Shown here one piece after another: positions 15,824 through 27,777 of a stretch of 28,460 nucleotides of DNA. The notes under the pieces were generated by a model that saw only the letters and a program-made list of their open reading frames with translations, was not told where the DNA came from and ran no database searches. This DNA comes from a virus: positions 1-28,460 of IMG/VR virus record IMGVR_UViG_3300021440_000096. One strand, written 5' to 3'. The position numbers were made by a program, and so were the translations under genes. The first letter of the stretch is position 1; every line of letters begins with the position of its first letter.

Positions 15824-16051
15824 ATGATCACCATCGGATTTATCGTCCCCATCGACTTCGACACCGTTCCCATCCGCGAACTGGTCGAAGCCAACGGGCT
15901 CCAATTCGCCGCAACCGAGTATTTCGAGACCGAGGGCCAATGGCTCACGCTGCGCTTCGCGTTTCCGCCGACACCGGAGCAAAAAGCCGCCCTGCTGGCC
16001 GACTTGCGGGCTTGGCTCATCGCGAACCTTGTCACGGAGGACGCGCAATGA
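15824..16051 (+). CDS. Small unknown protein
   Basis: A 75-aa acidic alpha/beta protein (MITIGFIVPIDFDTVPIRE at the start, PTPEQKAALLADLRAW helix near the end). No family is recognised. It overlaps the repeat-containing ORF downstream by four bases (ATGA), so both are probably made from one transcript. Confidence 0.55.
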   Translation: MITIGFIVPIDFDTVPIRELVEANGLQFAATEYFETEGQWLTLRFAFPPTPEQKAALLADLRAWLIANLVTEDAQ

Positions 16052-16236
16052 GTCAGGTTATTGAGCAGGAAATAGTTGGTATCGATGGCTATATCTTGGG
16101 CATTCGCTACATTGAGCAGGAAATAGTTGGTATCGATGGCTATATCTTGGACATTCGCTACATCGAATCCCATGATTATGACTTCGGCGAAAGCAACAGC
16201 ATACCATTCAATAATATTGGAACCGATACGCAATGA
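16048..16236 (+). CDS. Small repeat-containing protein
   Basis: A 62-aa protein built largely from two copies of a 17-residue unit (IEQEIVGIDGYILGIRY and the same with D for G), followed by an acidic tail. The unit is encoded by a tandem 51-bp duplication with one base difference. I choose the ATG at 16048 because it overlaps the previous stop (ATGA); the frame is open further upstream, but that part shadows the previous gene. The next gene also overlaps by four bases. Function unknown. Confidence 0.6.
   Translation: MSQVIEQEIVGIDGYILGIRYIEQEIVGIDGYILDIRYIESHDYDFGESNSIPFNNIGTDTQ
16061..16162 (+). repeat. Tandem 51-bp direct duplication
   Basis: Two adjacent 51-bp copies (16061-16111 and 16112-16162) differ at a single base near their 3' ends (GGGCAT versus GGACAT). 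The unit length is a multiple of three, so the reading frame is kept and a 17-residue unit is doubled. Confidence 0.95.
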
Positions 16237-25040: not shown

Positions 25041-25252
25041 GCACGAAACGGAAAAACGACAAGGTCATTGACGACTGCCTGCGCTGGTTGCGCGGGGAAA
25101 TCGCTGGCGACCCGGTGCATTACCTGTTCGCGATTGCGTGCCTTGCGCGGCAGGAGCGGGAGTTGCGTGCGGCGGCCAAGGCGGTGCTTGCGGCCAAGGA
25201 CGAGCCGGAGCGGGTCGCTGCGATGGCAGAGCTTCGGAGGGCGCTGCGATGA
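25037..25252 (+). CDS. Small helical protein between the regulator and helicase
   Basis: A 71-aa Ala/Arg/Glu-rich helical protein (DDCLRWLRGEIAGDPVHYLF, then ARQERELRAAAKAVLAAK). No family is recognised. It overlaps the HTH gene and the helicase gene by four bases each, so it is a link in a coupled series. It may be a helicase accessory factor; that is positional inference. Confidence 0.55.
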   Translation: MSTKRKNDKVIDDCLRWLRGEIAGDPVHYLFAIACLARQERELRAAAKAVLAAKDEPERVAAMAELRRALR

Positions 25253-27777
25253 AGCTCCGGCCCTACCAGGAGGACGTAATCTACCGCATCAAGTCGCGGA
25301 TTCATGCTGGCATTCGTCGCCTGCTCATCGTCGTCCCTACCGGAGGCGGAAAGTGCCTCGCCAAGGGCACACCCATCTTGATGCATAGTGGGCAAATCAA
25401 GCCCGTGGAGGCCATCAAGGTGGGTGATCTGCTGATGGGACCAGACAGCAAGCCTCGCAAGGTTCTGTCACTGGCCAGAGGCCGCGAGGAGATGTTCCGC
25501 GTGACGCCGATCAAGGGAGATGCCTACACGGTCAACCGCAGCCATGTGTTGTCACTTCGAATGACTAGCGGCGGTGACAGGTCATGGTGTGCTGGAAAAT
25601 CTTTTGCTCCACGGGATATAGCAAATGTGACTGTTGATGAATACCTTGCGTCATCAAACACCTTTAAGCACTGCGCAAAAGGCTGGCGCGTTGGCGTTGA
25701 TTTCCCGTCTTCAAAAACGCCGGAAGCCCTGCCTCCTTACATTCTCGGAACTTGGCTTGGCGACGGGAACTCAAGAGGCCCGTCGCTCACCAACATTGAT
25801 GACGAAATCATTTCGGAATGGAACTGGTTGGCCATGAAGCTTGGCTGTCAGTTCCGGCGCGAAATCCAAAAGGGAAAGTGTCAGCAATTCCATATTTCGA
25901 ACGTAAACGACACGGCCGGACGCGGCAGGAGAATCAATCCCGTGAAGGCGGCACTCCACAACCTCAACCTTCTCAACAACAAACACATACCGGACTGCTA
26001 CAAGATCAACTCAGAGTCCGTGAGGCTTGAGGTTTTGGCTGGGCTAATAGATACGGACGGGGCGCTTGGAAATGGCATTTTTGATTACATTTCAAAGGTC
26101 GAGCGTCTGGCCGACGATGTTTGTTTCCTTGCCCGATCGCTCGGTTTCGCAGCCTACAAAACACCGTGCAAGAAAACATGCGGGAACAACGGGAAGGTCG
26201 GAGACTACTTCCGCGTCTGCATTTCGGGCGACATCTCCCGCGTTCCGTGCCGGTTGCAAAGAAAAAGGCCCGCAAAGAGGCTCCAAAAGAAAAACGTCCT
26301 TAACGTTGGTATCAAGGTAGAGTCTGTTGGCGAAGATGATTACTTCGGCTTCGAAATAGATGGCGACCGGCTGTTTTTACTTGGCGACTTCACCGTGACA
26401 CATAATACCGTTATGTTTTCAAACATAACATCCGGTGCCGCACGCAAGTCCAAGTCAGTCAACCTCTTGGTCCACCGCGATACGCTGCTGACTCAGACGA
26501 GCGCCACCCTCACCCGCATGGGCATCGAGCACGGGCTTATCGCCAGCGGCTACACCCCGAGTTGCGTCCCCGTGCAGGTGTCCTCCATCTGGACGCTGGT
26601 CCGTAGGCTGACGAAGGTCGGAGCGCCGGACATCATCATCATGGACGAGGCCCACCACGCTGCCGCCGGGGCATGGTTGAAGGTCATCGAGGCTTGGCCG
26701 AATGCGGTCATCCTAGGCTTCACCGCGACACCGGAGAGGTTGGACGGCAAAGGGTTGGGCGACATCTTCCAAGAAATCATTGAAGGCCCGCAAGTAGAGT
26801 GGCTAATGCAAGAGGGTTACCTGACCCGCGCCCGCTACATCGGCGTTCCGCCAGATCAGCAACTCGACCTTTCTGGCCTAAGCACCACGGCATCAGGCGA
26901 CTACAACGCCGACAAGGTCGCGGAAATCGCTGACAAGCCCCACATCACCGGGTGCGCCATCAAGCACTACCTCCACTACTGCCCGGGGCAACCGGCGGTG
27001 ACGTTCGTCGCCAACCTCGCCCAGGGCCGGCACGTCAAAGACCAGTTCAACGCCGCCGGAATAGCATCGGAAATCCTTGACGGTGATGTGGAAACGAACG
27101 ACCGCAAGCGCATGGTGGCCGACCTCGCAGCGGGGCGCATCAAGAACATCATCAGTTGCGAGATCATCAACGAGGGCTTCGACCTGCCGGTTTGCGCCGT
27201 CGCCATCCTACTCCGGCCAACCGAGTCGCTTGCCCTTCACCTTCAACAGATTGGGCGCATCCTCCGCGTGGTCTATGCCACGGGCTTTAACCTCGAAACC
27301 CGTGAAGGCCGCCTTGCCTCCATCGCTGCTGGTCCGAAGCCGTTTGCGTTTGTCCTAGACCACGTCGGTAACATGAAGCATGGACGCGCCGAACTCCGCC
27401 GGGAATGGTCGTTAGAGGGGGCAAACGCCCGCCGGAAAAGGGAGCGCCTAGAGGAAGCCGCGTTGGCCAACCGGCAATGCCCTTCCTGCTTCTCCATCAC
27501 GGCTCCGGCTCCCAAATGTCCATGCTGTGGCTGGGTTTTCGAGGTGAAGGCCCGCGAGATCAAGCAGGTTGACGGCTCGCTGTCGGAACTAAGCAACGAC
27601 GAACTCGACCGCATTTACCTTGAGGAGCAGGCGAAGAAGAAGGCCCGCGCCCAGGTCGACCGCGCCCAGACACGCGAGCAGCTTGAAGCCATTGCCGCTC
27701 AACGTGGTTACAAGGCGTCCTGGGTTGACCACATGCTGGCCGCCAAGGCCAAGAAACTCTCACAGAAATCCGCATGA
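25249..27777 (+). CDS. SF2 DEAH-type helicase precursor interrupted by an intein
   Basis: The 842-aa precursor becomes a 491-aa helicase after removal of a 351-residue intein. Extein motifs are an opening RPYQEDVIYRI, Walker A PTGGGK/T split by the intein, DEAH in IIMDEAHHA, GFTATPERLDG, NEGFDLPVCAV and the arginine-finger-like QQIGRILR. A four-Cys zinc motif (CPSC...CPCC) lies near the C-terminus. It would unwind DNA or remodel complexes in phage replication or recombination. I use the ATG at 25249 because it overlaps the previous stop; an in-frame GTG at 25138 lies within the previous gene. The last bases overlap the nuclease gene (ATGA). Confidence 0.92.
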   Translation: MKLRPYQEDVIYRIKSRIHAGIRRLLIVVPTGGGKCLAKGTPILMHSGQIKPVEAIKVGDLLMGPDSKPRKVLSLARGREEMFRVTPIKGDAYTVNRSHVLSLRMTSGGDRSWCAGKSFAPRDIANVTVDEYLASSNTFKHCAKGWRVGVDFPSSKTPEALPPYILGTWLGDGNSRGPSLTNIDDEIISEWNWLAMKLGCQFRREIQKGKCQQFHISNVNDTAGRGRRINPVKAALHNLNLLNNKHIPDCYKINSESVRLEVLAGLIDTDGALGNGIFDYISKVERLADDVCFLARSLGFAAYKTPCKKTCGNNGKVGDYFRVCISGDISRVPCRLQRKRPAKRLQKKNVLNVGIKVESVGEDDYFGFEIDGDRLFLLGDFTVTHNTVMFSNITSGAARKSKSVNLLVHRDTLLTQTSATLTRMGIEHGLIASGYTPSCVPVQVSSIWTLVRRLTKVGAPDIIIMDEAHHAAAGAWLKVIEAWPNAVILGFTATPERLDGKGLGDIFQEIIEGPQVEWLMQEGYLTRARYIGVPPDQQLDLSGLSTTASGDYNADKVAEIADKPHITGCAIKHYLHYCPGQPAVTFVANLAQGRHVKDQFNAAGIASEILDGDVETNDRKRMVADLAAGRIKNIISCEIINEGFDLPVCAVAILLRPTESLALHLQQIGRILRVVYATGFNLETREGRLASIAAGPKPFAFVLDHVGNMKHGRAELRREWSLEGANARRKRERLEEAALANRQCPSCFSITAPAPKCPCCGWVFEVKAREIKQVDGSLSELSNDELDRIYLEEQAKKKARAQVDRAQTREQLEAIAAQRGYKASWVDHMLAAKAKKLSQKSA
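25354..26406 (+). mobile_element. Intein with LAGLIDADG homing endonuclease
   Basis: The 351-residue element begins with the nucleophile Cys1 (CLAKGTPILM) after Lys of the Walker A motif. It ends in His350-Asn351 (GDFTVTHN), and the first C-extein residue is Thr. The block B motif TVNRSH is at 59-64. The endonuclease motifs are LGTWLGDGN (131-139, Asp137) and LAGLIDTDG (228-236). The block F-like region DYFGFEIDGDRLFLL is at 329-343. Both splicing and homing residues look intact. The N-extein side ends GGGK and the C-extein side begins TVMF. The intein seems AT-richer than the flanking helicase codons, consistent with transfer. Confidence 0.95.

Follow-up and report, generated by a model that had tools for sequence, protein, structure and literature searches.

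A putative bifunctional class 1 intein of the PI-SceI type in the Walker A motif of a phage SF2 helicase

Described P-loop inteins and the helicase precursor

The P-loop (ATP-binding loop), where inteins are found most often, is termed a "classic" site of intein insertion in published work, and a mycobacterial DnaB intein at this site is treated in PMC6195587. Among phages, an intein with a LAGLIDADG endonuclease is annotated in the helicase gp34 of Salmonella phage vB_SenS-Ent1 (Jerseyvirus; HE775250) at the same site as the insert described here (MGSGK/C...HN/T, slashes marking the junctions). This intein is 49% identical to ours over its full length; it differs in having 347 aa, and its host helicase is only about 17% identical to ours. 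The same phage has a second annotated intein, in its DNA polymerase (L060:551-1447). Inteins of 332-351 aa from Klebsiella phages JD001/MEW1, Pseudomonas phage Touem01, Vibrio phages and Escherichia phage Bas95 occupy the same site and are 50-53% identical over the full length, with exteins 32-41% identical to those of our helicase; some of these proteins are annotated merely as helicase, homing endonuclease or hypothetical protein.

More distant systems share part of this arrangement. Inteins of DnaB-like proteins (RPxMGK/T; Bacteroidota, Campylobacterota and others) belong to the same family, are about 40-45% identical and have the same split between Lys and Thr, but their hosts have a DnaB-type P-loop context and are not SF2 helicases. 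PI-SceI, the intein of yeast VMA1, is similar in its layout of HINT and LAGLIDADG parts and in its catalytic residues and is the top structural match, whereas its length (454 aa), insertion site (VMA-a) and +1 residue (Cys) are different and its identity is about 22%. The mycobacteriophage TerL1-a inteins reside in the large terminase subunit, unlike the helicase intein considered here (PMC5050341).

The window, that is, the whole analyzed stretch of 28,460 bases, is a virus record with genes of tailed phages (large terminase subunit, portal, major head protein and a RecE-like exonuclease). One ORF of 842 aa, located on the plus strand like the parts of this gene given below, spans positions 25249..27777 (start ATG at 25249, stop at 27777), with a GGAGG resembling a ribosome-binding site 8 nt upstream of the ATG (25236..25240). 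Pfam and PHROG searches characterize it as a ResIII-type SF2 DNA helicase with an in-frame intein: the exteins match ResIII (1.7e-19) and Helicase_C (3e-10), and the helicase matches the DNA helicase family PHROG 16 (6e-80). By these sequence criteria the exteins are an SF2 DNA helicase of PHROG 16, with the Walker A motif, the DEAH box (MDEAHH, read in the sequence) and the helicase C domain all found.

The insert begins with TGC (Cys1) at 25354 and ends with AAT (Asn351) at 26406; it shares the frame of the helicase and is open throughout. It corresponds to residues 36-386 of the precursor, starts with Cys and ends with His-Asn. The N-extein (35 aa, 25249..25353) ends in the Walker A residues PTGGGK, and the C-extein (456 aa, 26407..27774) contains the remaining helicase, so that the Walker A motif is divided between Lys and Thr (VVPTGGGK / TVMFSNI). 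In intein-free relatives the same point is uninterrupted (PTGSGKTVLFAYI). Removal of the insert leaves a helicase of 491 aa (842-351) and restores a continuous conserved protein, as the joined PTGGGK/T corresponds to the PTGSGKT that stands unbroken in 24 loci.

Splicing and endonuclease residues

For random codons of the same composition, an open run of 351 codons has a probability of about 3e-6. The real support for the insert is its homology rather than this value: the insert matches Hom_end_hint in Pfam (E 6e-20) and PI-SceI in a PDB search (E 1.4e-21), the latter match spanning both ends and the endonuclease domain. A chance ORF is ruled out by these two matches. Weak Pfam matches were also found to Hom_end (E 0.002, slightly below the cut-off score) and LAGLIDADG_3, and a search of NCBIfam gave only weak intein matches.

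In the alignment with PI-SceI, residues C1, D137, K210, D235, K304, H350 and N351 are paired with C1, D218, K301, D326, K403, H453 and N454, respectively. The roles of these PI-SceI residues, including the catalytic Asp and Lys, are known. We compared 31 aligned family members, the window's own intein being one of them, and found C1, N61, H64, D137, K210, D235, H350 and N351 invariant in 31 of 31. The splicing residues form a class 1 set: the nucleophile C1; block B, N61-R-S-H64 (25534..25545), in which N61 and H64 are the counterparts of PI-SceI N76 and H79; and the C-terminal junction, where His350-Asn351 is followed by Thr+1, the Walker A Thr (26401..26409). The candidate endonuclease has two LAGLIDADG motifs, block C (YILGTWLGDG, residues 129-138, 25738..25767) with the catalytic D137 and block E (LAGLIDTDG, residues 228-236, 26035..26061) with the catalytic D235, and two Lys residues, K210 (25981..25983) and K304 (26263..26265), which correspond to the catalytic K301 and K403. 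The K304 position is the variable one, with Lys in 23 of the 31 members and Arg, His or Gln in the rest. Thus all four catalytic positions of PI-SceI are kept in this intein, and sequence comparison identifies the insert as a class 1 intein whose LAGLIDADG endonuclease looks intact.

The AlphaFold model of the intein, built from an alignment of sequences of the window, viral contigs and genome contigs, has a pLDDT of 93 and a pTM of 0.91. Foldseek ranks chains of PI-SceI in the first eleven places among the PDB matches (best E 8e-25, query TM 0.80); subsequent matches include the T. litoralis VMA intein, and Prp8 inteins were also matched. The insert is thus predicted to adopt the HINT fold.

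The first-pass annotation had placed an intein of 351 residues at 25354-26406, exactly in the Walker A motif between GGGK and Thr, with a spliced product of 491 aa, Cys1, His-Asn ends and both LAGLIDADG motifs. These coordinates and counts proved exact, and all named elements are present, the key residues being invariant in the family.

Family spread, empty sites and horizontal movement

Relatives of the intein were found in 390 annotated phage records, in 325 of them with coverage of at least 80%, and in 25 loci of environmental viral contigs; bacterial genome contigs encode them in at least 543 stretches. The exact K/T site is occupied in helicases of Klebsiella phage MEW1, Vibrio phages, Pseudomonas phage Touem01, Escherichia phage Bas95, Pantoea phage AH01 and Salmonella phage vB_SenS-Ent1; intein coordinates are already annotated in vB_SenS-Ent1 (HE775250) and Bas95 (PQ850607). 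Among 21 inspected loci of bacterial contigs, most inteins interrupt RPxMGK/T in a DnaB-type P-loop context, from which, rather than from a domain search, the DnaB assignment of these hosts is made, and the others reside in helicase-like P-loops. The nearest relatives are 54-58% identical at the protein level, the best one being L011 (58%).

Inteins are present at the same site in the 17 compared loci and in DnaB-like proteins of bacteria, and the first-pass annotation had stated that P-loop insertion is known for inteins. The novelty implied by that annotation did not hold, since the intein family, the insertion site and the class of the host gene are all already known. With this locus, the large family of P-loop inteins in SF2 helicases, terminases and DnaB-like proteins of phages and bacteria gains one further clear-cut example. 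It is chiefly of value for tracing the spread of one intein family between unrelated P-loop ATPases and for supplying a candidate endonuclease of a compact PI-SceI type.

Five loci (L010, L017, L018, L019 and L064) contain inteins of the same family earlier in the P-loop (TG/SGK, CG/SGK, RG/SGK), their hosts being other helicases and a terminase (Terminase_3, L019). Together with the K/T junctions, this shows that inteins of one family occur in at least two registers of the P-loop. Four more distant members (L021, L022, L023 and L025; 28-36%) interrupt their hosts where the sequence does not resemble a P-loop; L021, L022 and L025 were scanned with Pfam, and their host proteins had no match outside the intein.

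Intein-free alleles, which the first-pass annotation had proposed to look for, were surveyed in the 26 viral loci that a search with the C-extein gave. The Walker A motif is uninterrupted (PTGSGKT or PTGAGKT) in 24 of these loci, while L034 has an intein of the same family at the same site. In L051, also among the 26, the Walker A motif is uninterrupted and another intein-like insert occurs further on; this helicase (L051:2541-5105) is 36% identical to ours, and its differing downstream insert matches Pfam Intein_splicing (PF14890).

When the window and the 17 same-site loci were compared pairwise, the inteins were more similar than the exteins in all 153 pairs (on average, 52% vs 30% identity). 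L011 has the closest intein, yet its helicase is only 28% identical to that of the window. The intein tree groups the window with L011 (support 96/95), a grouping rejected by the extein data (p-AU 0.028), whereas the extein tree joins the window with L034 (80/86), a clade marginally rejected by the intein data (p-AU 0.049); as the groups were picked after the first trees had been seen, these marginal p-values are indicative only. The GC content at third codon positions (GC3) is 0.62 in the intein and 0.76 in the C-extein. Taken together, the identity contrast, the trees and GC3 are consistent with horizontal movement of the intein, and they set no date for its arrival here; slower evolution, rather than transfer, could in part account for the higher conservation of the inteins. 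A tree built from exteins with and without the intein has long branches; a single clade of the intein has p-AU 0.65 in it, and gains and losses are not ordered by this tree.

Proposed activity and alternative readings

The element is very probably a bifunctional class 1 intein, capable of both splicing and homing, that interrupts a phage SF2 helicase at its P-loop; we infer the two activities from its anatomy. The first-pass annotation, which took the element to look active for splicing and homing and the helicase to be inactive until splicing, gave a reasonable prediction on both points. The precursor of 842 aa would excise the 351-aa intein, yielding a helicase of 491 aa with an intact Walker A GGGKT. 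Splicing would take the standard class 1 course, in which an N-S shift at Cys1 is followed by transesterification to Thr+1 and by cyclization of Asn351 helped by His350. The freed intein would then cut intein-free alleles of the helicase gene in co-infecting phages, and repair of the cut allele would copy the intein in. Because 351 residues separate the Walker A Lys from Thr, the unspliced helicase likely lacks ATPase activity; a similar P-loop effect is ascribed to the Pyrococcus horikoshii RadA intein in a work cited in PMC6195587.

It is rather unlikely that splicing works and the endonuclease has lost its activity, the intein persisting since its removal from a catalytic loop must be exact and not through continued homing. 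Homing endonucleases can decay in inteins of long standing. This reading is opposed by the retention of the four catalytic positions, by the high confidence with which the endonuclease domain is predicted, and by empty alleles, which are common in relatives, so that targets for homing exist.

Conditional splicing, controlled by redox state, metal, DNA or a partner, might free the helicase activity under some conditions. PMC6195587 and PMC7360933 report such behavior of inteins in other helicases, for example mycobacterial DnaB, and the insert does part the Walker A Lys from Thr. With regulatory residues considered in outline, we found no specific pointer to such control in this intein sequence and regard this explanation as improbable. 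That the intein acts beyond a selfish passenger, as a timing or stress switch holding back the helicase ATPase until splicing is permitted, seems very doubtful. A broken intein or endonuclease within a dead helicase gene is scarcely credible, as no support for it was found, the splice residues are complete, the helicase domains are present, and a pseudogene or frameshifted element is ruled out by the single open frame of 842 codons.

Elsewhere in the window, a small ORF at 15940-16236 encodes a 17-residue unit repeated in tandem almost without change (EQEIVGIDGYILGIRYI / EQEIVGIDGYILDIRYI).
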